A DNA stretch of 64,000 nucleotides, from NCBI RefSeq assembly GCF_004114935.1, contig NZ_CP022221.1:1757001-1821000 (forward strand), in the 5' to 3' direction. A model generated the notes under the pieces. The model was not told the DNA's origin. It ran no database searches and saw only the letters and a list, made by a program, of their open reading frames with translations. Origin of the DNA: Bradyrhizobium zhanjiangense (GTDB lineage: Bacteria > Pseudomonadota > Alphaproteobacteria > Rhizobiales > Xanthobacteraceae). The stretch's first letter is position 1, and every line of letters starts with the position of its first letter. Both the position numbers and the translations under genes were made by a program. This document shows positions 23,838 to 39,674 of this stretch, piece after piece.

Positions 23838-23892
23838 GGGCGAGCGCTCCACAGGGCCCGACGCACATATAACGCGGAGCGGGACGCCGACA

Positions 23893-26103: not shown

Positions 26104-26448
26104 TCAGGCCTTCTTTTCGGTCAGGCTTCCCGGCCCCTTCGGCGTCTGCATGGTCGTACAGGTGCCCTTGGCCTCGAGCTTGAATGCGTTGCCCTGGTAG
26201 TCGACCGTGCTGGTCCCGGCGCAGGTTGTACCCGGCCCCGCATAGCAGTCGTTTTGCCCTTTCAGGGCCACGCCGAAGCACTTCTCCATCTTGCCGGATT
26301 TCAGCGCCTTTGCTGTCTCGGCCTGCTTCTCCTTCATCATCTTTTCCATGTCCTTGCTCATCTGCGCCGTGGCCGGTGCAGCGGCGAAGGATCCCACGGC
26401 TGCGACAAAGGCGCCGGCGACCAGTGCGGATAGGGTGCGATTGGACAT
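26104..26448 (-). CDS. bufA: Bufferin precursor BufA (DUF2282), copper-binding RiPP
   Basis: A 114-residue exported peptide precursor. Signal peptide at about 1-29 (ending AAPATAQ), a charged Met/Lys linker, then the DUF2282 core with four Cys at 57, 68, 76 and 97 ([36 protein letters not shown]). This four-Cys core with [11 protein letters not shown] is diagnostic for bufferin precursors, where the inner cysteines are converted by BufBC. It is preceded by a consensus SigF promoter at 26531-26556. Start ATG 26448 has AGGA upstream; the longer frame is noncoding leader. Expected role: periplasmic copper sequestration. Confidence 0.92.
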
Positions 26449-26858
26449 GTCGATTCCTCCGAATGCGGGTTTGCTGCGCGAGTACGCGACTTGCTGTGCG
26501 GCGCGCCGAACCGGCCCACCAATAAGTAAATTCGCTCCACGAGAGCGAAAGGTTACATCGGTCGAAGCCCAGAGGCTTCCCAAGTGGGCCCGACCAAACT
26601 GCCGAACAGTCTTCGGGCGTTGACTACGATTGTGCAGCGCACTGTTTCGGGAGCGCACGACCCGTTGATCGGACCCTCGACGCCTATCAGCCGTCGGAGC
26701 GATGTCGAGTGTGCCCGATCACATCAAAACTGACCTCTGTGTCAGAGACTGACTCATTAGTCATTCGCTCGCTCCTCCGTTCATCGGAACAGGCCTTCAC
26801 ACCTCGCGTTCGCTTCTAAGAGCTGAGGTGCAGGGCTTGGCTGAAATGGAGATGATCT
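26449..26858. other. Intergenic region between bufA and the 26.86-kb gene
   Basis: 410 bp with no gene. It contains the bufA leader and promoter (26531-26556). No GTAACC site faces the plus-strand gene at 26859, so that gene is not predicted to be SigF-dependent. Confidence 0.5.
26531..26556 (-). promoter_or_regulatory. SigF-type promoter of the bufferin operon
   Basis: Minus strand: GTAACC, 16 bases, CGAA, exactly the consensus reported for Caulobacter SigF. The -10 element lies 83 bases before the bufA ATG. Because sigF and nrsF are downstream in the same direction with only short gaps, the promoter implies positive autoregulation. Confidence 0.82.
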
Positions 26859-27152
26859 ATGTGGAAGAGCTTGTTTGCTGTGACTGCAGCCGTTGGATTT
26901 TGCGTTGCGATAGCCGGTCCTGCTGATGCGCAGCGATCTGGGATGGGTATGAGTGGCCCTGGCATGGCCGGTGCGCACACTGGCTTTAGCACTACCAGTC
27001 GAATGTCGCCGATGGCCACGCGCGGACCGATGATGTCGAGAGCGCAAATGCGTGGTCCCGCGTTCAGGCCGCCTGGCTGGAGTCATGGAAGAAAGGTCGG
27101 GTGGCACTGCCGCGTTGGGACCCGAGGGTGCATCCCGCCCGGTCTGCGTTAA
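26859..27152 (+). CDS. Small secreted Met-rich protein
   Basis: A 97-residue protein with a signal peptide (MWKSLFAVTAAVGFCVAIAGPADAQ). The mature part is unusually rich in Met, Gly, Ser and Arg (SGMGMSGPGMAG, RMSPMATRGPMMSRAQM) and ends with two Cys and a His (KVGWHCRVGTRGC). Met-rich periplasmic segments often bind copper(I), and the bufferin locus next door fits that, but no family is recognised. No SigF site precedes it. Confidence 0.6.
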   Translation: MWKSLFAVTAAVGFCVAIAGPADAQRSGMGMSGPGMAGAHTGFSTTSRMSPMATRGPMMSRAQMRGPAFRPPGWSHGRKVGWHCRVGTRGCIPPGLR

Positions 27153-27167
27153 TGGAGTGACCATCCG

Positions 27168-27203
27168 CGGCCCTCACGTCTATCGTGGCCCTCACGTCTA
27201 TCG
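27168..27203 (+). repeat. 18-bp tandem duplication
   Basis: Two adjacent copies of a unit containing GGCCCTCACGTCTATCGT lie just beyond the stop of the 26859 gene. It is probably a replication-slippage duplication; no function seen. Confidence 0.6.
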
Positions 27204-27306
27204 TAGTGAGTTGAAGCGGGGAGCGCAGTGTCTTTTCGTGATCGTGCACGAGTCCTCTGCGTGCGTATTCTCTTTCGCTGTCGGCGCGTTCGGGCATCGA
27301 TGACGA

Positions 27307-28773
27307 TCACCCAGCGCAGCACGACAATTTGGCAATCTCCTTGGCAAACGACAGCGCCGCCAGCTTGAGGCCTTCGACGGTGGTCAGATAGGGAAAGATC
27401 GTCTCCGCGAGATCAGTGACGGTCAGGCCCTGCCGAATTGCCAACGTGGCGGTCTGAATGCTGTCCGCGCCTTCCGGTGCGAGGATGTGCGCGCCGAGCA
27501 GCCGGTCGCTCCGTGCATCCGACACCAGCTTGATCAGCCCACGGGTATCCCGAGCAGCCAGCGCGCGCGGCACCTGGTCGAGACCGATCGTGGAAACGCG
27601 CACGTCGTGCCCCGCGTTGCGTGCCGCGGCTTCCGTAAGGCCGACGCTTGCCACCTGCGGGTCGGTGAACACGACGACCGGCACGGCGCGGTCATCGTAG
27701 CGCTGGCTATCGCCATTCAAGGCATTGATCGCGGCGAGCCTGGCGCCATAGGCCGCCATGTAGACGAACTGGTCGCGACCAGTCACGTCACCGGCGGCGT
27801 AGATGCCGGTCCGGGTGGTCCGCATGTGCTCATCGACGACGATGCCGCCCTTTGGCGAGACGGCAATCCCGTGTTCGGTTAGCCCCAGGCCTTCGATGTT
27901 GGGTGTGCGCCCGGCAGCGATGAGCGTCTGGTCGGCTTCGATGGTCATGGTCCGTTCGCCGCGCGCGACTGTGAGCGCGATGCCTTCCGCCGTCTTCCGA
28001 ATTCCGCAGTAAGCAACACCCGCGACCACGCTGATGCCCTCGTCCGCGAAATACTGCGTGAGCGCCGCGCTGATCTCGGGCTCGGCCTCGGGGAGCAGGC
28101 GGGACCGGCACACCAGCGTCACCTTTACACCGGCGCGTGCGAACATCTGGGCAAGCTCAGCCCCGACATAGCCGCCGCCGATCACGAGCAGCGACCGCGG
28201 CAGCGTTTCGAGATCAAGCGCCGTCGTGCTGGTCAGATACGGCACGGTCCCGAAACCGGGAATCGCTGGAACCGCCGGACGCGCGCCGGTCGCGATGATG
28301 ATCTTCCTGGCTGGAATGTGCGCCCCGTCCACCTCGACCCCACCGTCGGCCAGGCGCACCAGCCCTTCTCGAAACGCGATACCGCCGTAAGTCGGCAGCA
28401 GCTCGATGTACTTGGCTTGACGGAGTTCGGCGACGAGCGCGTTCTTCTGGCGGACTGTTGCCCGCCAATCGGTGATCGTGGCCTCTGCCCTGATCCCAGC
28501 GAAGCGCGCGGCGACGCGCGCATTGTGAAGCTGCTCCGCGGCGCGGATCAATGTCTTCGATGGGACGCAGCCGACGTTGACGCAAGTGCCGCCCATGGTG
28601 CCGCTGCCGACGAGGGCCACGCGCGCACCTTGATCGGCGGCCGTGATTGCAGCCGAAAATCCAGCCGAGCCCGCGCCGACGACAACGAGGTCATAGGGGC
28701 CGTTGCTCGATCGGCGCCGACAATCCGATCGCATGGCGACATGCGCCGCACTTCCCGGGCCCCACTCGTCCAT
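27307..28773 (-). CDS. merA: Mercuric reductase MerA (without N-terminal HMA domain)
   Basis: About 488 residues of the pyridine nucleotide-disulfide oxidoreductase family. FAD motif LVVVGAGSAGFSAA, redox-active GGTCVNVGCVPSK, NAD motif LLVIGGGYVGAELAQMF, ATG/GD FAD segments (YAAGDVTG), and the vicinal C-terminal Cys pair LSCCAG that is diagnostic of MerA and absent from lipoamide dehydrogenase. It reduces Hg(II) to Hg(0) with NADPH. There is no HMA (NmerA) domain before the FAD motif. Start ATG 28773 has AAAGGCGG upstream. It lies directly after merP in the merTPA operon. Confidence 0.92.
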   Translation of the reverse strand: MDEWGPGSAAHVAMRSDCRRRSSNGPYDLVVVGAGSAGFSAAITAADQGARVALVGSGTMGGTCVNVGCVPSKTLIRAAEQLHNARVAARFAGIRAEATITDWRATVRQKNALVAELRQAKYIELLPTYGGIAFREGLVRLADGGVEVDGAHIPARKIIIATGARPAVPAIPGFGTVPYLTSTTALDLETLPRSLLVIGGGYVGAELAQMFARAGVKVTLVCRSRLLPEAEPEISAALTQYFADEGISVVAGVAYCGIRKTAEGIALTVARGERTMTIEADQTLIAAGRTPNIEGLGLTEHGIAVSPKGGIVVDEHMRTTRTGIYAAGDVTGRDQFVYMAAYGARLAAINALNGDSQRYDDRAVPVVVFTDPQVASVGLTEAAARNAGHDVRVSTIGLDQVPRALAARDTRGLIKLVSDARSDRLLGAHILAPEGADSIQTATLAIRQGLTVTDLAETIFPYLTTVEGLKLAALSFAKEIAKLSCCAG

Positions 28774-28774
28774 C

Positions 28775-29068
28775 TCAGCCGCCTTTCGGCTTTGCATGCG
28801 CAGGATAGCCTGCGTTCAAGCTCGCGGCCGCAATCGCGTCCGGATTCGTCTTTGCGTCATCGAAAGTCACGGTCGCGGTCTTGGCCGCGAATGAGATAGA
28901 GACCTTGGTGACGCCGCGCACTGCCGCCATCGAACTCTTCACAATGTAGGGGCAGGAGGCGCAGGTCATGTTATCGACGGCGAACGTGACCGTCCGCTCG
29001 CCGGCAACAGCTGCCGTGCCCGACATTGCGAGAACGAGCAGGGCGAAGACGCCAAAGCTCTTGTTCAT
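28775..29068 (-). CDS. merP: Periplasmic mercury-binding protein MerP
   Basis: A 97-residue protein with a signal peptide (MNKSFGVFALLVLAMSGTAAVAG) and one HMA domain with MTCASC near residues 34-39, the Hg-binding GMTCxxC motif. It passes Hg(II) to MerT. Length matches MerP (about 91). The stop is next to the merA start and merT lies 18 bp upstream, so the order merT-merP-merA is standard. Confidence 0.92.
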   Translation of the reverse strand: MNKSFGVFALLVLAMSGTAAVAGERTVTFAVDNMTCASCPYIVKSSMAAVRGVTKVSISFAAKTATVTFDDAKTNPDAIAAASLNAGYPAHAKPKGG

Positions 29069-29086
29069 GGGACGGCTCTCATCTTC

Positions 29087-29503
29087 TCAGGCCTCGAGCA
29101 GCAACGGAGCGACATAGTCGAAGGCAAAGGCGGCCAGCACGAGCAGCGTCGCAAGCCAGAGCGCTAGCTTAACGATACGGTTGGATATCGGACGGGCACA
29201 GACCGCGCCGTCGACGCAGGCCTGTCGTGGCTTCCAATAGACGAGGTAAAACCCATAGCCCAGTACCCCGGCCGTTCCGGCGACGAACAGCGGCTGGTAA
29301 GGCGCGAGCGCCGTGAGATTGCCGATCCACGCGCCGCCGATGCCAAGACCGAACAGGATGAGTGGCACGATGCAGCAGGAGGAAGCCACAAGCGCGCCCA
29401 GGATTCCGCCAACTGCAACCACGCGCTGCCGTTCGACCAGGTCGCGTTCCGGCGTGCCGGCGGGCGGCGCAATTCGTGCTGTTCCAGGTCGCCACTCCGT
29501 CAT
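29087..29503 (-). CDS. merT: Mercuric ion transporter MerT
   Basis: A 138-residue inner-membrane protein. Helix 1 contains LGALVASSCCIVPLILFGLG with the vicinal Cys pair of MerT, helix 2 follows at GAWIGNLTALAPYQPLF, and a loop CVDGAVCA carries the second Cys pair. A third helix closes the protein (LALWLATLLVLAAFAF). Takes Hg(II) from MerP into the cytosol for MerA. It is divergent from merR across the operator at 29545-29567. Confidence 0.92.
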   Translation of the reverse strand: MTEWRPGTARIAPPAGTPERDLVERQRVVAVGGILGALVASSCCIVPLILFGLGIGGAWIGNLTALAPYQPLFVAGTAGVLGYGFYLVYWKPRQACVDGAVCARPISNRIVKLALWLATLLVLAAFAFDYVAPLLLEA

Positions 29504-29544
29504 GTCTGGTCCTTGCTGGATTTTCAGCGGTGACGTAGCGTCCG

Positions 29545-29567
29545 ACCTGTAGCGACTACAGGGTCAA
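29545..29567 (-). promoter_or_regulatory. MerR-type operator/promoter of merTPA
   Basis: A dyad CCTGTAG-CGA-CTACAGG (29546-29562) is followed on the minus strand by its own -35 (TTGACC, 29562-29567 read in reverse). The dyad within a long spacer downstream of TTGACC is the MerR-family promoter design. It lies between merT and merR. Confidence 0.75.
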
Positions 29568-29580
29568 GCGAGACTTTCCA

Positions 29581-30009
29581 ATGAGTGATCACGCCGTCGT
29601 GAAGAGCATGCGGCGCGCCGAGCTCGCCCAGCGCACGGGCTGCAACCTGGAGACAGTGCGTTATTATGAGAAGGTCGGTCTTCTGTCCGAACCGCCGCGT
29701 ACGCCGGGCGGCTATCGCAGCTACGACGCGGCGCACGAACAACGCGTTCGCTTCATCTTGCGAGCCCGCGAGCTCGGCTTCTCGCTTCGCGAAATCCGTG
29801 AGCTATTGCATCTCGTCGATGAACGCGACCAGCCTTGCGCCGATGTGCGCGCGGTCGCTGCGGCGCACCTCGATGACGTCAGGGCGAAGATCGCAGACCT
29901 GAAGCGGATGGAGCGGGTGCTCAAGGACGTGGTTGCCCGATGCGCCGACGGTACCCAGCCAGAGTGCCCGCTGATCAAGACGCTGTTCCGGGGCCGAGCG
30001 GTTACCTGA
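29581..30009 (+). CDS. merR: Mercury-responsive regulator MerR
   Basis: A 142-residue MerR-family protein. The winged HTH is at about 10-50 (AELAQRTGCNLETVRYYEKVGLL), followed by a long dimerisation helix (AHLDDVRAKIADLKRMERVL). The three cysteines needed for trigonal Hg(II) binding are present: DQPCADV, ARCADG and PECPLI. It represses and, with Hg, activates merTPA by twisting the operator between the divergent genes. ATG 29608 is an alternative start. Confidence 0.92.
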   Translation: MSDHAVVKSMRRAELAQRTGCNLETVRYYEKVGLLSEPPRTPGGYRSYDAAHEQRVRFILRARELGFSLREIRELLHLVDERDQPCADVRAVAAAHLDDVRAKIADLKRMERVLKDVVARCADGTQPECPLIKTLFRGRAVT

Positions 30010-30121
30010 TCGAAAATGCGCACGCGGCGCGATTGGCCCGCGGCCGATTCCGACACGTTCTCCGCATGAAATGAGCCTTCCTGTGGCTGCAGCGATCCTG
30101 GCTGCGGAATGGTGCGGACAA

Positions 30122-30147
30122 GTAACCTTGTTGGGTGATCGAGCGAA
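30122..30147 (+). promoter_or_regulatory. SigF-type promoter upstream of DUF3179 gene
   Basis: GTAACC, 16 bases, CGAA. It lies inside the longest open frame of the DUF3179 gene, which argues for a downstream translation start (30212 or 30239). A GCGAAC extended -10 is shared with other copies. Confidence 0.75.
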
Positions 30148-30211
30148 CAGCTTGGAATCGACGCAGATCGCGAATTGGAGGCGCTGGGGCACGATCCTCG
30201 GCGGCGAGCCA

Positions 30212-31273
30212 TTGAGATCTGGATCTGGAACTTGCCTCCGAGTGACTGTGCTGGCGGTGGTGGCGCTTGTCGCCCAGGCCATCATGGCTGTGGGCAGAGG
30301 CGTGGCTGAGCCCGCCAGCTGGCGCGCAGAATGGCCTCACACCGATTTTTCGCAGCACACTGTCCCGCTGCAGGAGATTAAATCGGGCGGGCCGCGCAGG
30401 GACGGTATTCCGTCGATCGACAAGCCTCGGTTCGAGCGGCTCAACGACGGCGCTGCATCCGGATGGGCCACCCGTGTCGGCAACGCGGAGCCGGTCATCT
30501 CGCTCGTCATCCGCGACGACGCGCGAGCGTATCCCCTAAGTATTTTGATCTGGCATGAGATCGTGAACGATGTTGTCGGGGGGACTCCAGTAACCGTCAC
30601 CTATTGTCCGCTCTGCAATGCCTCGCTCGTTTTCGAAAGCACGGTGGAAGATCGTATTCTCGATTTCGGCACGACGGGCAAACTCCGGAACTCGGATCTT
30701 GTGATGTACGACCGTCAAACAGAGAGCTGGTGGCAGCAGTTCGGGGGCGACGCCATCGTCGGCGTCATGAGCGGGAAGCATCTTCGCCTGGTTCCGTCAC
30801 GCCTGGAATCCTTTGGTCGTTTCCGTCAGCGTTTCCCACAAGGGCAGGTGCTGATCCCCAACGATCCGGCCGTGCGAAGGTACGGCACGAATCCCTACGC
30901 CGGATATGACGCCGGCGGGCGACAGCCGTTCCTGTATGATGGCTCCTTGCCCCACGGCATCGATCCGATGGAACGGGTGATCGCGGTCGAAACCCGGCCG
31001 AGCCATTACGAGGCCTGGTCGCTGCCGCTGCTGAGAGAACGCGGCACGATCGAGGCTGGCGACATCGTCATCAAATGGGAAGCAGGGCAAACCTCGGCGC
31101 TCGACAAGGGGACCATCGGAGGTGGCCGCGACATCGGCAACGTGGTGGTGCAGCGTCAGCAAGACGGACGACTGTCCGATATTCCGTATGACCTCCCATT
31201 TGCATTTGCATTCCACGCGTTCAGGCCGGGCAGCCCTATTCACAAGAGAACTCCGGCGGGTTCTGAAAATTGA
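30212..31273 (+). CDS. Secreted DUF3179 domain protein
   Basis: About 353 residues from TTG 30212 (alternatives GTG 30239, ATG 30071). The signal-like segment is RVTVLAVVALVAQAIMAVG. The DUF3179 core contains ARAYPLSILIWHEIVND followed by VTVTYCPLCNASLVF with a CxxC, then GKLRNSDLVMYDRQTESWWQ. DUF3179 proteins are extracytoplasmic and of unknown function. The frame to 30071 is disfavoured because a SigF-type promoter lies within it. It follows merR but has its own promoter, so is likely an independent stress gene. Confidence 0.85.
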   Translation: MRSGSGTCLRVTVLAVVALVAQAIMAVGRGVAEPASWRAEWPHTDFSQHTVPLQEIKSGGPRRDGIPSIDKPRFERLNDGAASGWATRVGNAEPVISLVIRDDARAYPLSILIWHEIVNDVVGGTPVTVTYCPLCNASLVFESTVEDRILDFGTTGKLRNSDLVMYDRQTESWWQQFGGDAIVGVMSGKHLRLVPSRLESFGRFRQRFPQGQVLIPNDPAVRRYGTNPYAGYDAGGRQPFLYDGSLPHGIDPMERVIAVETRPSHYEAWSLPLLRERGTIEAGDIVIKWEAGQTSALDKGTIGGGRDIGNVVVQRQQDGRLSDIPYDLPFAFAFHAFRPGSPIHKRTPAGSEN

Positions 31274-31742
31274 AACGAACCTTCCCCAGGACAAATCCGT
31301 CTCTGAGGCTTACGCCGGGCCGATCGAAAGTGTCCTGTTGGCCGCTGCCTCACGTCAACAGCATTCTGATCGAAACGGCGCTCCAACGGCCATGACGCCG
31401 ACGTATCGCGCTAGCTCGCGGCAGCAGTTGCCCGCCGGACTGGCTGCCAGCGGGACGATTATGTCTCGTACCTCGCGGGCGTGGCAGTCGGCTGCGGCTG
31501 TTACATGGTAAGAAATGTCGACGTGAAAGCGTAACCTCCGCAGCGATAGCTCCGAATTAATCACTAGAAGTGCACATCACGCGCTCCAACATCTAGTGAT
31601 CTCGACTTGCGCGCAGCCAGACTTCTTGAGCGGTGAGATACGCAAAGAGGAGAGCCCTCGCATTTCTAGGATCGAATGAATCTGTGTGCGCATGCTGGTT
31701 TTCGAGGAGTTACCAAACCTCACCTTGACATGGAGGAAACCG
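31274..31742. other. Intergenic stretch with a SigF-type promoter
   Basis: 469 bp with no supported gene; short frames lack ribosome sites. The promoter-like site at 31531-31556 lies here, implying an untranslated leader of roughly 180 bases for the small secreted protein at 31743, or an unrecognised small transcript. Confidence 0.5.
31531..31556 (+). promoter_or_regulatory. SigF-type promoter upstream of small secreted protein
   Basis: GTAACC, 16 bases, CGAA. The distance to ATG 31743 is about 187 bases, longer than at the other sites. Confidence 0.68.
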
Positions 31743-31973
31743 ATGACCAAACTCACAATTCTCAGCGCCGCGACTATTCTGTCGATGATGGCGGCAACGC
31801 CAGTGTTCGCGCAGGCGGCCTTTCAGGCGCAGGAGCCGGCTGCGGTCGCATCTTATTGGCGCCCTAATGCAAATATCCCGAACGTAAGCGTGCACAGCTC
31901 TGCGCGCGGCATGGGTGCGTTGGCATACTTGTCGCCTGGCAGGAGCCACGCGAAGCGGCACGTTGCGCGCTAG
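31743..31973 (+). CDS. Small secreted protein of the SigF-type regulon
   Basis: A 76-residue protein with a signal peptide (ILSAATILSMMAATPVFAQ) and a mature part of about 52 residues with Trp, His and Arg but no Cys (YWRPNANIPNVSVHSSARG, RSHAKRHVAR). GGAGG seven bases upstream fixes ATG 31743. No family recognised. Two hairpins follow the stop. Confidence 0.65.
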   Translation: MTKLTILSAATILSMMAATPVFAQAAFQAQEPAAVASYWRPNANIPNVSVHSSARGMGALAYLSPGRSHAKRHVAR

Positions 31974-31977
31974 ATCG

Positions 31978-31997
31978 CTTCACCGGCAGCGGTGAAG
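31978..31997 (+). terminator. Hairpin after the small secreted protein gene
   Basis: CTTCACCG, four-base loop, CGGTGAAG: a perfect 8-bp stem five bases after the stop at 31973. No T-tract. Confidence 0.5.
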
Positions 31998-32030
31998 GTG
32001 GCGCGGTGCAAGATGAACCACGCCGAAGTC

Positions 32031-32064
32031 CGCTGCCGGGTGTCGGCCCGGCAGCGCATTTTTT
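32031..32064 (+). terminator. Intrinsic terminator
   Basis: A 10-bp perfect stem CGCTGCCGGG / CCCGGCAGCG with a 6-base loop is followed by CATTTTTT. It ends transcription from the 31.5-kb promoter before the VKOR operon promoter at 32089. Confidence 0.85.
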
Positions 32065-32088
32065 GCCGCAGACGTTGCTCTGGCCCAG

Positions 32089-32113
32089 GTAACCTTCCGC
32101 GCGCATCAGCGAA
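32089..32113 (+). promoter_or_regulatory. SigF-like promoter (N15 spacer) of the VKOR/radical SAM/methyltransferase operon
   Basis: GTAACC, 15 bases, CGAA followed by C-C-T. It shares the GTAACCTT and GCGAAC extensions of the exact copies but has a spacer shorter by one. It lies 25 bases after an intrinsic terminator and about 103 bases before the VKOR start, a natural operon promoter position. Confidence 0.55.
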
Positions 32114-32215
32114 CCTCTACTTGCGGGTCGAGCGTCCGTGACTAGCAGGCTGACGCACGTCCCCGGCGTCCCGATCCGAGCAGGAGCCCGCCCGAATATC
32201 ACCTGGTCCCAAGCC

Positions 32216-32611
32216 ATGAACATTTATCGGCTCATTGCGTTTGGTGTGGCGGCTGTCAGTGCGGCAGCCATGATCTACGTTGGGCTTTATCAGAGCCGGC
32301 TCGTGGGACGATTGCTATGTCCGATCTTCGGCGACGGATGCGAAGGAGTCGCCGACGCCCCCTTTGCACGGCCGTTCGGCATTCCCGATGGCTATATCGG
32401 CGCCGTTCTTTACGCTGTCGTCCTCGGCTTGTTGCTCGCGCCGCCCGTCCGTTGGGTCTGGATCGCGCTGTTCGTGCTTTCGACTGCTGCGACGTTCGCG
32501 AATATTCTTGGCGTGCGCGACATGATGAATTTTGGGAGTTACTGCTTCTACTGCCTGACCACGACGGTCCTGTCCCCTGTGCTGCTCTGGTCGGTATGGC
32601 AGTTGAGATGA
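32216..32611 (+). CDS. VKOR-family disulfide-generating membrane protein
   Basis: A 131-residue protein with four hydrophobic helices. It has the VKOR Cys pattern: loop pair Cys35 and Cys42 (CPIFGDGC), a conserved G-I-P-D-G-Y-I-G-A stretch at about 55-63, and the active CxxC at 110-113 (YCFYC). VKOR proteins use quinones to re-oxidise periplasmic thiol oxidoreductases. Start ATG 32216 follows family length. It is followed 30 bp later by the radical SAM gene in the same direction, so it is probably the first gene of that operon. Confidence 0.82.
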   Translation: MNIYRLIAFGVAAVSAAAMIYVGLYQSRLVGRLLCPIFGDGCEGVADAPFARPFGIPDGYIGAVLYAVVLGLLLAPPVRWVWIALFVLSTAATFANILGVRDMMNFGSYCFYCLTTTVLSPVLLWSVWQLR

Positions 32612-32641
32612 CGATTCGGGTGCCCGTAGGCGGGGTTTGGC

Positions 32642-34168
32642 ATGGACACTGATCTGACCATTGGCGCCAATCGTCCAATCGCGGACCATCTCCGCGCGGA
32701 CGCGGATTACGTGTTCTACGAGTTGACGCGAAGCATCTGCCCCGATTGCCGGCGTGTCATCGACGCCAAGATCCTTCTGCGTGACAACAAGGTCTATATG
32801 AGCAAGCGTTGCCCCCAATGCGGGCCATTCGTGTCGCTCGTGTACGGCAATGCCGAGGCCTACGTTTCGTTCGCGCGATACAACAAGCCCGGGACGATTC
32901 CGCTGGCACATGGCACGAGCGTCGACCGCGGCTGTCCGCACGATTGCGGCCTTTGTCCGGACCACGAGCAGCATGCGTGTCTCGGCATCATAGAGGTCAA
33001 CAGCGCCTGCGACATGGATTGTCCGCTTTGCTTTGCCGACGCGGGACCAGGGTTCAGCCTGACGCTCGAAGAAGTGGAGCAGGTGCTCGACGACTATGTG
33101 CGAACCGAAGGCCGGCCCGAGGTTGTGCAGTTTTCCGGTGGCGAGCCGACGATACATCCGCAGATCATCGACTTCATTCAGGCCGCCAAGGCTCGCGATA
33201 TCCGGTTTGTCATGCTCAATACCAACGGCAAGCGCATCGCCCGTGACGATCGCTTCCTTGAAAAGCTCAGCGAGGCGCGGCCCACCCTGTATTTCCAATT
33301 CGATGGTTTTGAACGGGAAACCTATCGGATCATACGCGGCGAGCCGGATATTCTGGGGGAGAAGCTCCGGGCGCTGGACCGGCTTGCGCAGATCGGGCTG
33401 GACGTCACCATCGTCCCCGCCATTGAGCGGGGAGTCAATGAGCACGAAATCGGCAGGATTGTCGAATTCGCAATCGGGCATCCCGCAATCCGGGGGATCA
33501 CGTTCCAGCCGGCATTCCACGCCGGCCGATACATGGCGCACGATCCGCTGCGCCGGATGACAATCCCCGACATTGTGCAACTGATCGAGGTGCAGACCGC
33601 GGGCAAGTTCGTCGCCAGCGACTTCGTGCCGGTGCCGTGCTGCTTTCCGACGTGCAATTCAGTCACCTATGCCTTTGTCGAAGGTGACGCAGTGACGCCG
33701 CTGCCCCGCATTCTCAATGTTAACGACTATCTCGACTATATTACCAACCGCATCGTTCCAGATTTCAGCCACGAAGTCAGGACGGCGCTCGAGGGCCTTT
33801 GGTCGTCCTCTTCCGTTGCCGGTTCGGCGAAGTCTCTTCAGCAGGTCGCAACCTCGTGTCAGGCTTGCGAGCTTCCCGACGGTCTGGCGATCCACGCTAT
33901 CGCGAAAAGCATGATCATGATCATGCTCCAGGACTTCATGGATCCCTGGACCTTCAATCAGAAGAACCTCATGAAGTGCTGCAAGGAGTTTCTGCTTCCC
34001 GGCGGCAAGCAGATTCCGTTCTGCGCGTACAATACCATCGGCTATCGCGAGCAGGTGCGGCGGCAGTTGAACGCCATGGAGCCCGAGCGGCGGCGGGCGC
34101 GGCGCGAAGGGCGTCCCTATGAGCCGAGGCCGATCGTGTTTGATTTTGCGGGCGGGAGCTCCAAGTGA
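32642..34168 (+). CDS. Radical SAM enzyme similar to tetraether lipid synthase (Tes/MJ0619 family)
   Basis: A 508-residue radical SAM protein. The N-terminus has a rubredoxin-like pair of CxxC (Cys33/36 and Cys57/60: SICPDC ... RCPQC), then Cys98/102/105/113 and the radical SAM cluster Cys123-x3-Cys127-x2-Cys130 (CDMDCPLC). SAM-binding GGEP follows near residue 166. More Cys near the C-terminus (VPCCFPTC, SCQAC, KCCKEF, FCAYN) imply additional Fe-S clusters. This layout, and the 'LTRSICPDCRRVIDAKI' opening, match the archaeal Tes family that couples lipid chains by C-C bonds. The bacterial substrate is unknown. Coupled to the methyltransferase by a GTGA overlap. Confidence 0.82.
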   Translation: MDTDLTIGANRPIADHLRADADYVFYELTRSICPDCRRVIDAKILLRDNKVYMSKRCPQCGPFVSLVYGNAEAYVSFARYNKPGTIPLAHGTSVDRGCPHDCGLCPDHEQHACLGIIEVNSACDMDCPLCFADAGPGFSLTLEEVEQVLDDYVRTEGRPEVVQFSGGEPTIHPQIIDFIQAAKARDIRFVMLNTNGKRIARDDRFLEKLSEARPTLYFQFDGFERETYRIIRGEPDILGEKLRALDRLAQIGLDVTIVPAIERGVNEHEIGRIVEFAIGHPAIRGITFQPAFHAGRYMAHDPLRRMTIPDIVQLIEVQTAGKFVASDFVPVPCCFPTCNSVTYAFVEGDAVTPLPRILNVNDYLDYITNRIVPDFSHEVRTALEGLWSSSSVAGSAKSLQQVATSCQACELPDGLAIHAIAKSMIMIMLQDFMDPWTFNQKNLMKCCKEFLLPGGKQIPFCAYNTIGYREQVRRQLNAMEPERRRARREGRPYEPRPIVFDFAGGSSK

Positions 34169-35004
34169 GCGACGAGTCGACCGGCCACGGCAATTCAAAG
34201 ACCTCGGCTCGCGACCTCTCGCCTCCGGACATAAAGCAATGCTGTGCGGCTGTTTACGATAGCGATGCTGCGAAGCTGTTGCTTGGCGGCTCGTTTCATC
34301 CGGGCGGTGTCAAGCTTACGGAGCGGCTTGGTCAGCTGCTGGACTTGAAGCCTCAGACCCGCGTCCTGGACGTCGCGGCGGGCAGGGGAACAAGCGGGAT
34401 TTTCCTCGCCAAGCGATTCGGCTGTGAGGTGGTCGGCGTTGACTTTAGCCAGAAGAACGTTGAGGACGCCAATTGCACCGCGCAGGAGATGGGTTTGGCC
34501 GAACGAGCGTCGTTTCGGTGGGCCGATGCGGAGCGGCTGTCGTTTGCCGACAGCTCGTTCGACGCAGTCATCTGCGAGTGCTCCTTCTGCCTCTTCCCGG
34601 ACAAGCAGGTTGCCGCCAGCGAGTTCGCGCGGGTGCTCGCAGCCGGTGGTCAGGTCGGATTGAGCGATCTGACGCGAATGGAAACGTTGTCGCGAGACCT
34701 CGATGGCCTGATGTCCTGGATCGCGTGCATCGCCGATGCGCGACCGCTCACGGCTTATGTCGCACATCTCTCCGCCGCCAATCTGGCGGTACGGATCGTC
34801 GAAGAACACAACCAGTTACTCGCTGAATTCGTGAATGGGATACGCACGCGGCTTCTCGCCGCCGAGATCGCGGCAGGATTAGGGAAGCTTGTCCTGCCGG
34901 GCTTCGATCTCGATGCGGCCAAGAAGCTCGTCAGGTCTGCTCAGGAGGCGATTGCGCAAGGCAAACTTGGCTACGCAATCGTAACGGCAATCAAGCCTGC
35001 GTAG
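34165..35004 (+). CDS. Class I SAM-dependent methyltransferase coupled to the radical SAM enzyme
   Basis: A 279-residue protein; start GTG 34165 overlaps the upstream stop by four bases. Motif I is VLDVAAGRGTSG (about 68-79), with VGVDFS following and a motif-IV region (FDAVICECSFCLFP). An N-terminal segment with a vicinal Cys pair, KQCCAAVYDSDAAKLLLG, is typical of a group found beside Tes-like radical SAM genes and loosely resembles ArsM/UbiE. Acceptor unknown. Tight coupling argues the two proteins work on one substrate. Confidence 0.82.
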   Translation: MSDESTGHGNSKTSARDLSPPDIKQCCAAVYDSDAAKLLLGGSFHPGGVKLTERLGQLLDLKPQTRVLDVAAGRGTSGIFLAKRFGCEVVGVDFSQKNVEDANCTAQEMGLAERASFRWADAERLSFADSSFDAVICECSFCLFPDKQVAASEFARVLAAGGQVGLSDLTRMETLSRDLDGLMSWIACIADARPLTAYVAHLSAANLAVRIVEEHNQLLAEFVNGIRTRLLAAEIAAGLGKLVLPGFDLDAAKKLVRSAQEAIAQGKLGYAIVTAIKPA

Positions 35005-35156
35005 TGACAAGGGTGGCGGGAAGGGTGCAGTAGCGCGGAACACCCTTAGGCTCAATACCACCCCGCATCATAACGAAAGGTCCTGTGCAACGACGATTCT
35101 GATGAAGCTGGCTGCCAGAATCCGTTTCTGACATCTATAGAGCGACGAAGAATCCG

Positions 35157-35909
35157 ATGCGTAACACACTGGCAAAGATCGGCAGGGGTCTCGCGAGTTT
35201 TCTGAGCAGGGAACGGCATGTCCATGGAGCAACTCCGCCCACTCCGCCGGATCGGCTACTCTCCTATCTGGAGCCCGCCGACGTGTTGCTGGTCGACGGC
35301 AATTCGCAGATCAGCACGGCAATCAAATATTTGACGCAATCGACCTGGTCGCACGCCGCCCTCTATGTCGGCGCCTTCGGCGAAGGACGCCTTGCTCGAT
35401 CGACGCACCGCTTCATCGAAGCGGATCTCATGGAGGGCGTTCGCAGCGTCGGCGTCGAGGCGTTCGCGGGCATGCCATCTCGAATCTGCCGGCCGGTGGG
35501 ACTGACCGAGGCAGAACGCCGCGCCGTCACCGGCTTTGCGATCGCCCACCTCGGACATCGCTATGATCTCAAGAACGTCATTGATCTCGCGCGCTATCTG
35601 TTGCCGACCCCGCCGGTCCCCGTGCAAATTCGCCGCCGCATGATCGCGTTCGGAAGCGGCGATCCAACCCGGGCCATTTGCTCCACGCTGATCGCCCAGG
35701 CCTTCCAAGCGCTACAATACCCCGTGCTTCCCTTCGTCGAGTATCGCGCCGCGGCAACGGAGGACTGTCCCGAGTGCATTGACGAGATCATGCACATCCG
35801 CCACCACTCCCTGTTCGTTCCACGCGATTTCGATGTCTCGCCTTACTTTCGTATCGTCAAACCGACGATAGAAGGCGAATTCGATTTCAGGACATTGAAA
35901 TGGAGCTGA
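35157..35909 (+). CDS. YiiX/YebB-like permuted NlpC/P60 hydrolase
   Basis: A 250-residue protein of the permuted papain-fold (YiiX/C92) family. The catalytic His is in STWSHAALYVG (about 63-73) and the catalytic Cys in RAICSTLIAQAFQ (about 179-191), the reverse order seen in permuted members. Such proteins cleave amide or thioester bonds of envelope components. No clear signal peptide. It is 152 bp after the methyltransferase and may be separately expressed. Confidence 0.78.
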   Translation: MRNTLAKIGRGLASFLSRERHVHGATPPTPPDRLLSYLEPADVLLVDGNSQISTAIKYLTQSTWSHAALYVGAFGEGRLARSTHRFIEADLMEGVRSVGVEAFAGMPSRICRPVGLTEAERRAVTGFAIAHLGHRYDLKNVIDLARYLLPTPPVPVQIRRRMIAFGSGDPTRAICSTLIAQAFQALQYPVLPFVEYRAAATEDCPECIDEIMHIRHHSLFVPRDFDVSPYFRIVKPTIEGEFDFRTLKWS

Positions 35910-35974
35910 AGGAGAGTCGGACGGCGGACCGATTTTCCGGTTCACGACAGAGTCTGTGGCAGCTCGCCGTCGAA

Positions 35975-36453
35975 CTATTTTTCTCTCGCTGCCTGCTCGG
36001 CGATCTTCGCAAATATTTCGTCAAGCTCGGCCGCAACTCCCTTGAGTGCATCCTTGCCCTCATCGGCGTACGGTGCAAACACGGTCGTTGGCTTCTTGTA
36101 CGACAGAGTGGCCGTGCCGTCCGGATTTTCGGTCACATAGAAGCGAATTGGCGCCTCGATGCCGGCCGACACACTTGCATCCAGCATGCGCCTCGCGAAA
36201 TCGTTTCGAAAAACACCCACAACCCGTTGCCCGGAATGTGGATGCTGGTCGCCTTGGCTCCCTCCGACGCGCTCGCCGACGTGACGAGGCCCATGTGTTG
36301 ACCTTTTACGGTACTCTCAAGTCTCTCACCGAGAGTGGAGAACGGGTAACGCGTATCGATCACGACCCATCCGCTTTGTGGCCTGATCGTGCCTGCAGTC
36401 GCCGGGGATATTGCTATCGATAAAGCAGTGACGGTCACGAAGATCCGATACAT
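35975..36453 (-). pseudogene. DUF302 protein gene with a frameshift
   Basis: Two frames together make one DUF302 protein. The first (36453 to about 36226) gives a signal peptide (TALSIAISPATA) and the DUF302 N-half ending at HIPGN; the second (from about 36225 to 35975) continues VVGVFRNDFARRMLDASVSAG, IEAPIRFYVTENPDGTATLSYKKP. One added base after GGCAAC would restore it. DUF302 occurs in periplasmic stress proteins. It is either a recent inactivation or a sequencing error. The downstream minus-strand region contains no other gene. Confidence 0.7.
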
Positions 36454-36486
36454 GACCAGCTCCTTTCGGCATCACCATCGCGAAAC

Positions 36487-36984
36487 CTACTGAACTAGCT
36501 CACCCTCAAGAACGAACCGGCGCTCCGTCGGGCCCGTTGCCATTATATGGAAGGTCCCGGCGCCCTTGAGCTTGTCCAGCTTTCCGGTGCCGCTCACGAC
36601 CTGCCACACGCCATTGTCCAGAAGCTTCGGTTTGCCGTCCGGCCCAGGAACGAAGATCGCCTGGATCGTCCACTTGATGTAGGCCTTGTCTCCATCCGCC
36701 TTGGTGAATTCGAGATAGCCGCGGGGCTCGCCGCCCACGCCTGGTACGATGTCGTGGGCGCCGTACTCCTCAACCGTCGCGCCGGCGAGAACGCCCTGAC
36801 CTTCGGATTTGCCTTCGCGATGAACGAGCAAAAAGAAATGTTTGCTGCCGTCGGCGAAGTCGAGGCGAAGCGCCTCCTTCTGGGCAACAAGTGCTTCGAA
36901 TTTGACCGTCTCCGCTTTTGCGGTGGACACCGCAACCGCGATCAGTCCGACGATGAGTGCATATTTGATCGCAAGGTGTTTCAT
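36487..36984 (-). CDS. Secreted protein of unknown function
   Basis: A 165-residue protein with a signal peptide (KYALIVGLIAVAVSTAKA). The mature part is beta-rich (FADGSKHFFLLVHREGKSEG, GAGTFHIMATGPTERRFVLEGELV), a one-domain barrel-like pattern similar to secreted DUF proteins. The start ATG 36984 has AGGA nine bases upstream; the frame extends to 37332 by shadow only. It follows the CcdA-like gene by 33 bp and is probably the last gene of the thioredoxin-CcdA transcript. Confidence 0.68.
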   Translation of the reverse strand: MKHLAIKYALIVGLIAVAVSTAKAETVKFEALVAQKEALRLDFADGSKHFFLLVHREGKSEGQGVLAGATVEEYGAHDIVPGVGGEPRGYLEFTKADGDKAYIKWTIQAIFVPGPDGKPKLLDNGVWQVVSGTGKLDKLKGAGTFHIMATGPTERRFVLEGELVQ

Positions 36985-37016
36985 GGCTCTGTTCCTCATT
37001 GAAACAATCGACCGCT

Positions 37017-37742
37017 TCATAACCGCGTCGTCACGGTTACCAGCCAGTCTGGCATGGCGCGGGTCAGGGAGGCCTCGATGATCTTGTCGAGGCCTGTGAG
37101 GACAAAGGTGCCGATGCCGACCAAGGCCGCACCCATTAAAGGCTTGCCAATATGCGACACTCGCGCCAGCCAATCGCGCCGCGCAAAGACGGCTTGTCTC
37201 GAGCCGTAGGCGAGTGCGAGGATCGGCGTTGCCGCACCCAAACCGAAACTGATCATGATTGCCGCAGCCGTAGAGACGCTGTCGCCTTCGGCCGCGAGCC
37301 CGACTGCCGCCCCAAGCGTCGGACCTGAGCAAGGAGACCAGATAACCCCAAGGAGGGCGCCAAGAACGAATTGGCCAGCGATTCCCGACGGCTGGAGTCG
37401 GTCAAGCACCATCTGGCCCCTAGTCGCGACGGGCGTCGCAATCGTTGTCAATCCTTCTTGAAGCGCGGGAACGAGAAGGACAATGCCCATGCCGGTTATC
37501 AGAGCCGCGATCGCGAGGCGCAACATCGACGGATCGAGCCCGATGCTGAATCCGACCGATGCGATGGCAACTCCCATCGCCGCAAAGGAAGTCGATAGGC
37601 CCGCGGCCAGCGCCAGCGGTCCCCATGCATTTTGCTCGATCACTCCAAAAAGAACGATCGGCAATATCGGCAACACGCACGGGGACAACGTCGATAGCGC
37701 TCCGGCTGCGTAGCCGAGACCCAAACTGCCGAGACCAACCAT
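37017..37742 (-). CDS. CcdA/DsbD-type thiol electron transporter
   Basis: A 241-residue membrane protein with six helices. Two conserved Cys occur in the CcdA motifs LSPCVLPILP (residue 22) and IWSPCSGPTLG (near 140). CcdA moves electrons from cytosolic thioredoxin to periplasmic thiol proteins. It ends 3 bp after the thioredoxin-like gene stop, a clear partnership. A SigF-type promoter precedes the pair. Confidence 0.88.
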   Translation of the reverse strand: MVGLGSLGLGYAAGALSTLSPCVLPILPIVLFGVIEQNAWGPLALAAGLSTSFAAMGVAIASVGFSIGLDPSMLRLAIAALITGMGIVLLVPALQEGLTTIATPVATRGQMVLDRLQPSGIAGQFVLGALLGVIWSPCSGPTLGAAVGLAAEGDSVSTAAAIMISFGLGAATPILALAYGSRQAVFARRDWLARVSHIGKPLMGAALVGIGTFVLTGLDKIIEASLTRAMPDWLVTVTTRL

Positions 37743-37744
37743 CG

Positions 37745-38125
37745 TCAGAACGCCTTCGCGATCATCGCGCGGATGAGCGCGGGGTTGGTTTCGGCCGTCG
37801 AGCGCGTGACCTCCTTGTCGCCCCGAAAGATGATAAGCGTGCTCTGGTACTGGACGCGGAACCGCTTCAACACGTCTTTAGCGGTGTCAAAGTCGACCTC
37901 GTAGACAACCAGATCCGGCTTTTCCTTTTCGATCTCTTGGACAATCGGACGCTGTTGCCTGCAGGTTGGACACCAGGAGGCGGTAACGTCGACGAGAATG
38001 GCTTTGTTCGCAGCTTGGGTGGATCTAAATGCATTGGCGTCGAACGGCTGTCCCGCCTCGGCGATGAGTGACGATGCAAGGAGCGCCGCCGCGATCAGCA
38101 AGACTTTATAGGTTTTCAAGAGCAT
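37745..38125 (-). CDS. Exported thioredoxin-like protein
   Basis: A 126-residue thioredoxin-fold protein with a signal peptide (VLLIAAALLASSLIAEAG) and active site WCPTC at residues 51-55. The C-half (YQSTLIIFRGDKEVTRSTAE) holds the cis-Pro region replaced by a Ser/Thr stretch. It should act in the periplasm as the partner of the CcdA-like protein directly downstream. A consensus SigF site lies 43 bases upstream of its ATG. Confidence 0.86.
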   Translation of the reverse strand: MLLKTYKVLLIAAALLASSLIAEAGQPFDANAFRSTQAANKAILVDVTASWCPTCRQQRPIVQEIEKEKPDLVVYEVDFDTAKDVLKRFRVQYQSTLIIFRGDKEVTRSTAETNPALIRAMIAKAF

Positions 38126-38167
38126 GATCTGTCAGTCTCCGTCGGATAGCGCGAACCTCAGGGTAGT

Positions 38168-38193
38168 TCGCTCGGAGGACAGAAAAGGTTACT
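38168..38193 (-). promoter_or_regulatory. SigF-type promoter of the thioredoxin/CcdA operon
   Basis: Minus strand GTAACC, 16 bases, CGAA, ending 43 bases before the thioredoxin start. GTAACCTTTT and GAGCGAAC match the bufA site in the extended positions. Confidence 0.8.
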
Positions 38194-38286
38194 AGGTCGC
38201 GTGAAAAAAAGTCGGCTCGTCCGAAAATTGACGCGGCGGACGAAGACGAAGGCCGCGGCGTCACCTCCGATGACCCTTCGCTTGCA

Positions 38287-38973
38287 CTAAGCGTTGCGGA
38301 GGTATTCGATGAGGTCGTTCGCAGCAGCCGACGACCAATCCGCTGCGCCCGGCATGTATCCGATGATCAGTCCGGAACTTGCGATGAGATAGGTAATCGG
38401 CATCCCGTAAAGCACGAACGGAGCATTCCTCTCATTGCTGCTATCCGGAGATGCGACGTAGCCGTTGGGATCCAAATAGATCGGGAGGGTCCGCAGCTCG
38501 AGCGTCGTGACGAAGCGCTCAACCGCCGCTCGACCATCTCTATCCTCCGAAACCGCAGCGACGTACAGGCTCCCGCGCCAGGCGTTTCTGTATTGTCGCT
38601 CCAGACGCGGCAGTTCAGTACGGCAGGCGGCGCACCACGATGCCCAGAAATTCAAGAGGACCGGCTTGCCGCGAAGGGACGACAGATCGACCGTGCCGCC
38701 TTCAAGCCGAAACAGCCTGGTTGATGGCAGCTCTCGCTGCGGGCGAACGATCGTAAATTGATATCTGCCGGGTTCGAAGTTGGGAATGTTTCGAGCTTGC
38801 GGCGCCGCAATCGCAGGGGTTGCGAGGGACGTAACCGCCCCGATCAGTCCAGAGACGACGATATCCCGCCGCGACGGAACATTGACCCCGGTGCGCATCG
38901 GAGCTGGGCCGGATCGGCGCGTGACCACTGGAAGGAGCCTCCATTTCGTGCGGGCTTCAACCGGCAATCTCAT
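38287..38973 (-). CDS. TlpA-like periplasmic thioredoxin
   Basis: A 228-residue redoxin. A twin-Arg-type leader (PSRRDIVVSGLIGAVTSLATPAIA) precedes the domain. The active site is WCAAC at about 113-117 (NFWASWCAACRTELPRLE), followed by a cis-Pro region YGMPITYLIA. The start 38973 overlaps the DUF427 stop by about 17 bp; ATG 38898 is an alternative that starts just before the twin-Arg segment. Likely role: reduction of periplasmic thiols such as apocytochrome or copper-protein cysteines. Confidence 0.82.
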   Translation of the reverse strand: MRLPVEARTKWRLLPVVTRRSGPAPMRTGVNVPSRRDIVVSGLIGAVTSLATPAIAAPQARNIPNFEPGRYQFTIVRPQRELPSTRLFRLEGGTVDLSSLRGKPVLLNFWASWCAACRTELPRLERQYRNAWRGSLYVAAVSEDRDGRAAVERFVTTLELRTLPIYLDPNGYVASPDSSNERNAPFVLYGMPITYLIASSGLIIGYMPGAADWSSAAANDLIEYLRNA

Positions 38974-39298
38974 CGACCTTTAGCACTGGCGACAAGCGAG
39001 GAACGGCCGGCCGAAACGCAATGAACGGCAACAGCGGGTTCGGCAGCCAATACATCCATCCGACAAACGGCTCCCTTGTTCCGTCGGGGAGGTGCAGATC
39101 GAGCCAAACGTACAGAAATTTATAGATGCAGAGTCCGGGCACCCAATTTGGCCGCAGGTAGTTCGTCTTTAGACACTTTCGGCTGATGTAGAGGTTTTCT
39201 TCAAAGGGCAAAATCCCCCAAAATCGGAGCGGGCCCTCGGCGATGACCTCGCCGCTTGATCGATGGGTGACGCGGATAGAGGGAGCCATGGTTCGCAT
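38957..39298 (-). CDS. DUF427-like protein
   Basis: About 113 residues from ATG 39298 (alternative 39289). Features of DUF427: SSGEVIAEGPLRFW, ENLYISRKCLK and a C-terminal aromatic/Pro block PFVGWMYWLPNPLLPFIAFRP. The frame continues upstream to 39520, but the SigF-type promoter at 39333-39358 lies inside it and sets the start downstream. Translationally overlaps the TlpA-like gene. Function unknown. Confidence 0.68.
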   Translation of the reverse strand: MRTMAPSIRVTHRSSGEVIAEGPLRFWGILPFEENLYISRKCLKTNYLRPNWVPGLCIYKFLYVWLDLHLPDGTREPFVGWMYWLPNPLLPFIAFRPAVPRLSPVLKVDEIAG

Positions 39299-39674
39299 AT
39301 CGCCCGTTACGTAAAATTGCGCTCCTGTAGAGTTCGTACCCCAGGCAGGAAAGGTTACCCAATGAAGCGGCTGAATCTGGTCAACTTGAAAGGGAGATCG
39401 ACACCAAAAGCGAATTATTGAGCAACCTTCGGTCGGGTGGGGACGAACGGGGCACGATGGCAGAATCGTTATCGGAAGAGCTGAGTGGGCCGCGCACGTC
39501 AAAAGATGACCGCTCGGCACGCAATTCGATGTATGCTGGACTGGCGCTCTTTGCCTTTCGTCGCGTGCAGAGGCTCAAACTTTGCTGTCGGTCGAACCGC
39601 TGTTCAGTAAGGCTCGGAGGTCAATTTGCTCTTTTTGTGCGCAGGACACGATAGTCCACTGATGGAGGTAGACC
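39299..39674. other. Intergenic region upstream of the DUF427 gene
   Basis: 376 bp. It holds the SigF-type promoter at 39333-39358. The remaining part toward the dehalogenase shows no gene; short frames are shadows. Confidence 0.5.
39333..39358 (-). promoter_or_regulatory. SigF-type promoter of the DUF427-TlpA operon
   Basis: Minus strand GTAACC, 16 bases, CGAA, ending 35 bases before the ATG at 39298. GTAACCTTTC matches the bufA site in the first ten bases. Confidence 0.75.

Follow-up and report, generated by a model that had tools for sequence, protein, structure and literature searches.

Within a 64,000-nucleotide stretch of the Bradyrhizobium zhanjiangense genome (assembly GCF_004114935.1, contig NZ_CP022221.1, positions 1,757,001 to 1,821,000 of the forward strand; hereafter the window), one 17-kb segment holds a gene for a sigma factor of the extracytoplasmic function (ECF) class and six fitting promoter sites of the form GTAACC-N15/16-CGAA. 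The initial annotation, made from the letters and open reading frames alone, had proposed that this sigma factor, taken to be SigF, drives a copper-binding ribosomally synthesised and post-translationally modified peptide, periplasmic thiol redox genes and a radical S-adenosylmethionine (SAM) pathway as a unit. The sites and genes concerned are listed here by operon, in window coordinates with strand, spacer length (N15 or N16) and profile scores:

26531-26556 (-): SigF-type promoter, N16, exact motif, heading bufA-bufB-bufC-doxX-sigF-nrsF
26104-26448 (-): bufA, bufferin precursor (DUF2282; PF10048 82 bits, cut-off 22.4)
25180-26049 (-): bufB, MNIO bufferin maturase (NF050167 387 bits, cut-off 310)
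24396-25205 (-): bufC (DUF2063; PF09836 98 bits)
23892-24399 (-): doxX (PF07681 58 bits)
23208-23837 (-): sigF, ECF sigma factor, ECF16-like (Sigma70_r2, PF04542; r4_2, PF08281)
23422-23447 (-): near-consensus element GAAACCTTT...GCGAA inside sigF, one mismatch, conserved at codon level
22540-23211 (-): nrsF-like anti-sigma gene, six transmembrane segments, C110/C130/H180 type (PF06532 114 bits; Cys pattern; AlphaFold2 model)
21870-22418 (-): AhpC/TSA-type redoxin 3′ of nrsF, without a site of its own (PF00578)
30122-30147 (+): SigF-type promoter, N16, exact motif, heading the DUF3179 gene
30242-31273 (+): DUF3179 protein (PF11376; start set as in the related protein P0121)
31531-31556 (+): SigF-type promoter, N16, exact motif, heading the small secreted protein gene
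31743-31973 (+): small secreted protein, 76 aa, without Cys, no family matched
32031-32056 (+): terminator-like hairpin, 11 pairs plus T tract, in a terminator scan that as a whole was at chance level
32089-32113 (+): SigF-type promoter, N15, from the pattern scan, heading the VKOR-radical SAM-methyltransferase operon
32216-32611 (+): VKOR-type thiol oxidoreductase (PF07884; four Cys kept in 8-9 of 9 sequences)
32642-34168 (+): radical SAM protein, TrsS/Tes-like
34165-35004 (+): SAM methyltransferase, relative of the DVU_1556 and ArsM families
38167-38192 (-): SigF-type promoter, N16, exact motif, heading thioredoxin-ccdA
37745-38125 (-): thioredoxin-like protein, exported (PF00085)
37017-37742 (-): CcdA/DsbD-type membrane protein (PF02683)
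36487-36984 (-): secreted protein 3′ of ccdA, after a 32-bp gap
39333-39358 (-): SigF-type promoter, N16, exact motif, heading p38957-tlpA
38957-39289 (-): p38957, 110 aa, DUF427-like below threshold
38287-38937 (-): TlpA-like thioredoxin (PF00578; best NCBIfam match TlpA, under its cut-off)

A pattern scan of the window recovered the five exact N16 sites and the single N15 site of the initial annotation and, in agreement with it, no further exact site. All stood at the places given, save that the thioredoxin site reported at 38168-38193 (-) is shifted by 1 bp, and the extra T directly 3′ of GTAACC was present at all six. Shuffled sequence led us to expect 0.04 N16 and 0.02 N15 matches, and none of 100 shuffles of the window gave five exact N16 sites. 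When the scan was extended to the complete 9,342,022-base genome, it found 11 exact N16 sites, five of them inside this 13-kb cluster. The six elsewhere are no more than the control yields, because the reversed pattern gives 16 matches at the same spacing, and 11 scattered sites would be expected to form about 1e-8 such clusters. Pooling N15 and N16 raised the genome total to 12 (reversed control 53), so that the N15 form occurs once, before the VKOR operon. On the shuffles and the genome-wide clustering we rejected a chance origin of the sites in the window. The six sites elsewhere were not accepted as extra regulon members; four of them lie within open frames of at least 150 aa, and the one at 3103663 is found again, unchanged or altered at one position, in three genomes (G116, G080 and G059) outside the 29 described below that carry the window-type anti-sigma gene.

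Start codons lie 83 bp from the -10 element for bufA, 95 bp for the DUF3179 gene, 187 bp for the small secreted protein, 103 bp for VKOR, 42 bp for thioredoxin and 44 bp for the gene before tlpA. Scans of the window for sigma-70-type promoters and terminators gave results overall not above chance, and a search of the window with ARAGORN found no tRNA; the hairpin at 32031-32056 stands between the small secreted protein gene and the VKOR promoter. From bufA to nrsF the successive gaps on the minus strand are 54, -44, -7, 53 and -4 bases. Since the sigF-nrsF pair, located where it had been reported (22.5-23.8 kb), ends the bufA operon, it is probably autoregulated, and the bufA promoter can probably serve sigF and nrsF in a positive loop. 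The bufferin set itself is complete by profile matches (DUF2282 precursor, MNIO maturase, DUF2063 partner and DoxX). Gaps are similarly short between VKOR and radical SAM genes (30 bases), radical SAM and methyltransferase genes (-4) and thioredoxin and ccdA (2), and the secreted protein at 36487-36984 probably belongs to the thioredoxin-ccdA operon. Profile matches bear out the earlier gene labels except for DUF427 at 38957-39289, which reaches 14.5 bits against a PF04248 threshold of 22.1. Passed over in the earlier gene list was a mer operon (merA, merP and merT on the minus strand, merR divergent) at 27307-30009, nested between bufA and the DUF3179 gene and devoid of SigF-type sites.

Of 265 genomes of the genus, 29 carry an NrsF of the window type (E 1e-40 or better), and the system is thus accessory. 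All copies outside this genome were taken with their surroundings as far as contigs reach, giving 31 neighbourhoods and 1,049,799 bases. Across these, GTAACC-Nn-CGAA with n from 10 to 23 was found 22 times at n=15, 43 times at n=16 and 0-4 times at every other spacer, with 0-5 matches per spacer for the reversed motif. Because the counts peak at 15 and 16 alone, both spacers are genuine; the N15 site, correctly identified at the outset, was called a variant, a status that the normal use of this spacer among relatives does not bear out.

For counts of sites before genes we added five neighbourhoods picked for motif clusters or for the radical SAM gene, which makes 36 and leans the counts towards the motif; these five and the window also enter the flank logo and the -35-form counts, while the spacer counts use the 31 alone. 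Orthologues were tblastn matches of at least 40% identity with the N-terminus aligned. A site preceded bufA in 21/21 cases, VKOR in 7/9, thioredoxin in 12/19, p38957 in 7/10, the DUF3179 gene in 3/4, the small secreted protein gene in 2/2 and HAD in 1/5. In the same 36 neighbourhoods no site preceded any of 29 merA, merP, merT or merR orthologues, 32 nrsF genes or 10 AhpC/TSA genes. The difference between regulon and mer genes gave a Fisher p of 1.7e-14, uncorrected for kinship among relatives that are not independent, and the mer operon was rejected as a regulon member. Mer genes also lie near the cluster in several relatives, likewise without a SigF-type site.

Related -35 forms account for most of the gaps. 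GTAACT and GTAACA at the same spacing were enriched (12 and 10 matches against control values of 0.3 and 0.7), and such sites stand before six of the seven thioredoxin genes lacking GTAACC; of the three p38957 genes lacking it, two have GTAACT, as does the sole DUF3179 gene. The flanks show a T/C tract after the -35 box and mostly C after CGAA, with most spacer columns below 0.5 bit, in a logo informative for flanks only, as sites were collected with the core boxes fixed. Gene order and strand vary among relatives and gene subsets differ; three neighbourhoods are arranged site-thioredoxin-ccdA-sigF-nrsF.

Several other genes were seen behind SigF-type sites in relatives. One genome (G161) has a true DUF427 gene (99.5 bits) in this position, and in five (G034, G175, G151, G161 and G245) the gene behind such a site encodes a 220-aa exported protein that matches no Pfam family (sites include L050 14351-14376 and L080 929-954). 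At two loci (L046 9180-9600 and L045 4112-4500) a SigF-type site 3′ of the DUF3179 gene stands ahead of a gene for a small exported peptide, possibly metal-binding, in which NPCAP is repeated four times; the window has no convincing match to this peptide and carries a Cys-free exported protein at that position.

The fourth target operon was followed beyond the genus. Its radical SAM protein scored 319.6 bits against TrsS (NF045646, cut-off 490) and 316.1 bits against Tes (NF045702, cut-off 450), under both cut-offs, and its closest solved structure is tetraether synthase (PDB 7tol, E 2.7e-80). The methyltransferase likewise fell short of the DVU_1556 family (NF045667, 138.3 bits, cut-off 155), and its seven Cys are kept in 9/9 sequences, window included. 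Among 146 genomes of the genus, close radical SAM orthologues (at least 82% identity) were found in this genome and two others (G043 and G125), and among 198 genomes of the family in two further genera; all four close-orthologue genomes have a window-type nrsF within about 16 kb. Neighbourhoods chosen by nrsF add four more genomes with a radical SAM gene (G245, G161, G244 and G251). The radical SAM query has matches in 63 of the 146 genomes, almost always at about 37% identity.

A scan of named genomes for the radical SAM gene kept 80 of 100 loci, at 60-89% identity, from Acidobacteria, Chloroflexi, Proteobacteria and others. The methyltransferase gene lies directly 3′ in 75/80, whereas the gene directly 5′ is VKOR in 12/80 and a MerA-like flavoprotein in 11/80. 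We considered these MerA-like neighbours as true mercuric reductases and found no support in the five tested (358-372 bits, cut-off 454). Seven of the 12 VKOR loci (L117-L123) have a GTAACC site ahead of VKOR, and in an eighth (L124) the VKOR-radical SAM genes lie within a bufA operon headed by a site. Sigma genes at least 30% identical to that of the window are present in 11/80 loci, eight proteobacterial (L117, L119-L124 and L129) and three acidobacterial-type (L149, L165 and L167), the latter at 32-40% identity and with GTAACC sites in the locus. DUF3179 genes are near the pair in four loci (L142, L169, L190 and L192), of which L169 also has ccdA, thioredoxin and tlpA relatives. Judged by these loci, the radical SAM gene set reaches well past its link with this sigma factor and occurs mostly without SigF.

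What the radical SAM-methyltransferase pair does is finely balanced: we give an even chance that it makes or modifies a membrane lipid, as Tes does, or a thiol or metal-binding metabolite, and that its place in the regulon is a late recruitment. The tetraether synthase structure as nearest solved relative points this way, as do the replacement of VKOR by a MerA-like flavoprotein at 11 loci and the position of the genome's paralogue; that second Tes/TrsS-like radical SAM gene (L116 8912-11054) adjoins a gene of the LGT family (prolipoprotein diacylglyceryl transferase). Against it, the TrsS and Tes cut-offs are both missed, and the three acidobacterial-type loci with sigma genes and GTAACC sites suggest that the ECF link may be older.

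A further element lies within sigF itself. On its coding strand, GAAACC-N16-CGAA stands 211 bp before the nrsF start, at the same place in 24/35 sigF genes (window included) and also in further families of the class. Out of 80 distinct sigF genes, 48 encode the residues overlapping the -35 box, and 42 of these 48 have at most one mismatch to the motif, against a mean of 4.8 and a maximum of 13 in 2000 runs of synonymous codon resampling within each gene. At the element, Phe is written TTT in 35/41 cases (background 22%), Glu as GAA in 42/43 (42%) and Val as GTA in 4/4 (4%), the last restoring GTAAC; four OsrA-type loci have three to five mismatches at this position. In one acidobacterial locus (L149 4504-5087), at a distance of about 5 kb from its radical SAM pair, the genes for SigF and NrsF come with full GTAACC sites both within sigF and pointing away from it.

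Codon choice makes DNA-level selection on the internal element well supported, and the element is likely a promoter for nrsF that provides feedback. That it is conserved only through a protein segment, ETF-x5-AN, serving for example in anti-sigma binding, strikes us as unlikely, though a serious contender: those residues are kept in 48/80 sigF, and elsewhere GAAACC shows no enrichment as a promoter form (three of 25 matches lie outside sigF, control 9.3), while the codon fit to the DNA motif is far above synonymous chance. On that lack of enrichment we rejected GAAACC as a general -35 form. The same shortage outside sigF, and the 32 of 80 sigF genes without the coding motif, also weigh against a promoter role.

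The sigma and anti-sigma genes make an ECF16 pair, with sigma regions 2 and 4, an adjacent six-helix NrsF/DUF1109 protein and GTAACC-N16-CGAA promoters. The identification of the motif as the SigF promoter of Caulobacter stands. The pair, by contrast, is not Caulobacter SigF-NrsF itself: the window NrsF scores 36 bits against NF042994 (cut-off 300), where two OsrA-type controls, at 102 and 119 bits, are likewise under the cut-off, and its Cys/His pattern is another. Caulobacter NrsF has a conserved Cys pair, C131/C181 (PMC3511200), and OsrA has C129/C179, of which C179 is required for release on peroxide (PMC3420878). In the window type C130 is kept, the second position is His in 31/35 and Tyr in 4/35 sequences, and an extra C110 is present in 35/35 (window included in each). 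Across 45 loci from class and order surveys, drawn from at most the best 30 matches each, and the genome's second NrsF, the C110/C130/His type numbered 37, the OsrA type four (the second NrsF among them) and other mixtures four. We considered and dropped the idea that the Cys type of NrsF goes strictly with the sixth base of the -35 box, for Caulobacter pairs C131/C181 with GTAACC.

An AlphaFold2 model of NrsF (mean predicted local distance difference test score 87) shows six long helices and places C110 close to the end of helix 3, C130 close to the start of helix 4 and H180 just past helix 5. If the N-terminus is cytoplasmic, all three would face the periplasmic side in this model, where they may form a metal or redox triad. 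The alignment behind the model comprised 41 sequences picked from the C110/C130/His type, and for this reason its invariant His is no independent evidence. Foldseek with the model returned no match at E 0.001 or better, and sequence searches for solved relatives of NrsF or DUF3179 gave none that was convincing.

The DUF3179 protein has an invariant CPLC and His and, to judge by its model, may be in part Rieske-like (residues 91-194 of the 343-aa form, compared with Rieske/NirD domains). A natural NrsF-DUF3179 fusion exists as one 569-aa protein (P0218), its NrsF part of the same type as in the window. Tentatively, and with more doubt than confidence, we suggest a distinct NrsF branch in which the C110/C130/H180 triad, at the periplasmic ends of transmembrane segments 3, 4 and 5, senses soft metals or thiol oxidants, the Rieske-like CxxC DUF3179 protein is a dedicated partner, and the sigma-dependent anti-sigma promoter embedded in sigF is kept across Alphaproteobacteria.

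It is highly probable that all six sites serve as promoters for the ECF16-type sigma factor whose gene lies at 23208-23837 and that they form a local SigF-like regulon, because they are clustered in the genome and kept before the same genes in rearranged orders. The core of the initial proposal, one sigma factor for the bufferin, thiol redox and radical SAM genes, survives on these same grounds; "as a unit" was too strong, for the subsets differ among relatives. Several observations count against this regulon. Five of the 31 neighbourhoods lack a GTAACC site (their NrsF proteins are among the more distant, at 52-64% identity), and 27 of the 82 sites in the 36 neighbourhoods precede no orthologue of a window gene, some of them standing before other exported or redox genes. 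Four of the 12 VKOR loci (L126, L129, L132 and L139) are without GTAACC, L129 despite having sigF-nrsF. Three exact sites lie on a 5.6-kb contig of one relative (G074 contig 412, L052) that matches none of the window genes; its tested open reading frames include genes for phasin, histidine kinase and outer-membrane efflux proteins. Crosstalk may also occur with a second ECF16-like pair, whose upstream sequence is similar.

That second pair, whose NrsF is of the OsrA type, lies near 6.588 Mb, and it is improbable that its EcfF-type sigma factor is the main reader of the sites, with the local one minor or redundant. GTAACA-N15-CGAA stands upstream of its sigma gene, a similar consensus, GTAAC(g,a)-N14-15-(c,t)CG(t,a), is published for EcfF of B. 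japonicum, and among the strongest EcfF targets there is bll1027, labelled a 'putative cytochrome c biogenesis protein' and perhaps CcdA-like (PMC3420878). Yet the published consensus does not have C as its sixth base, the GTAACC sites surround the window-type sigF-nrsF and can head its operon, and most listed EcfF targets (peptide methionine sulfoxide reductases, hypothetical proteins and ecfF-osrA) are unlike this gene set. Most improbable of all is that the motif is shared DNA spread with a mobile metal-resistance cluster and without regulatory meaning for all targets: the patchy distribution (29/265 genomes), the nested mer operon and the variable subsets and orders would fit, but sites diverge outside the core boxes and T/C tract while the spacing stays at 15-16, and the mer genes travel along without sites (0/29).

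On the favoured assignment to the local sigma factor, periplasmic metal or thiol stress would inactivate the membrane anti-sigma factor and free the sigma factor, which would transcribe from GTAACCT(T)-N15/16-CGAA promoters. Its targets would be (i) the operon for the copper-binding bufferin peptide, which ends in sigF-nrsF and would give positive feedback; (ii) the CxxC DUF3179 protein; (iii) the small secreted protein; (iv) VKOR with the TrsS/Tes-like radical SAM protein and methyltransferase; (v) thioredoxin-CcdA; and (vi) the 110-aa protein with TlpA. The weaker site inside sigF would then supply extra anti-sigma factor and shut the response off; the nested mer operon lies outside the regulon.

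Copper-binding bufferins and oxidant repair are established outputs of ECF16 sigma factors. In this locus, genes for periplasmic thiol reduction and for a radical SAM/methyltransferase pathway share that promoter code, and the pathway thereby gains a condition under which it can be tested, metal or thiol stress at the envelope. Given the different Cys/His set and the natural fusion of NrsF with DUF3179, point mutations can directly test how this membrane anti-sigma factor senses stress. If true, a promoter written in the codons of a sigma gene would provide feedback in a compact and conserved form that ordinary annotation misses. In the passages searched of the ECF16 literature and of a 2025 survey of MNIO clusters, no ECF16 target was found to be TlpA, VKOR, DUF3179 or this radical SAM protein, and we found there no NrsF of the C110/C130/His type and no promoter within the sigma gene.

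Among the closest known systems, SigF-NrsF (ECF16) of Caulobacter crescentus shares an ECF sigma factor with a six-helix DUF1109/NrsF anti-sigma factor, the GTAACC-N16-CGAA motif, described via 5′ rapid amplification of cDNA ends and promoter fusions, and bufferin-type DUF2282/DUF692/DUF2063/DoxX operons as targets (PMC3511200). It differs in a ten-gene target table without thioredoxin-CcdA, TlpA, VKOR, radical SAM or DUF3179 proteins, in a sigF-nrsF pair reported as not strongly autoregulated (PMC3511200), and in its C131/C181 pair, where the window NrsF has C110/C130 with His at the second position. EcfF-OsrA of Bradyrhizobium japonicum is also an autoregulated ECF16 pair with a conserved Cys pair that has been studied, and its target bll1027 means that a CcdA-like ECF16 target may not be new; it differs in C129/C179, in its consensus and in its methionine sulfoxide reductase targets (PMC3420878). 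An OsrA-type pair is present in this genome beside the window-type pair. RpoE7-EcfR7 of Sinorhizobium meliloti, another ECF16 pair, adjoins four genes orthologous to CC3254-CC3257, but has two predicted promoters, a divergent layout and a classical Cys pair reported as conserved (PMC6180224). Brucella BcrS-AbcS, also of ECF16, has GTAAC/CGAA promoters too, with a C129/C179 anti-sigma factor and hypochlorite and methionine sulfoxide targets (PMC8315932). Outside the ECF16 group, TrsS/Tes radical SAM proteins and DVU_1556-type methyltransferases resemble the window pair in the sequence of both proteins, whereas the window pair falls under their curated cut-offs and is preceded by VKOR and a SigF-type promoter. 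Set against these systems, the locus is a SigF-like regulon whose gene set is wider and whose sensor differs.

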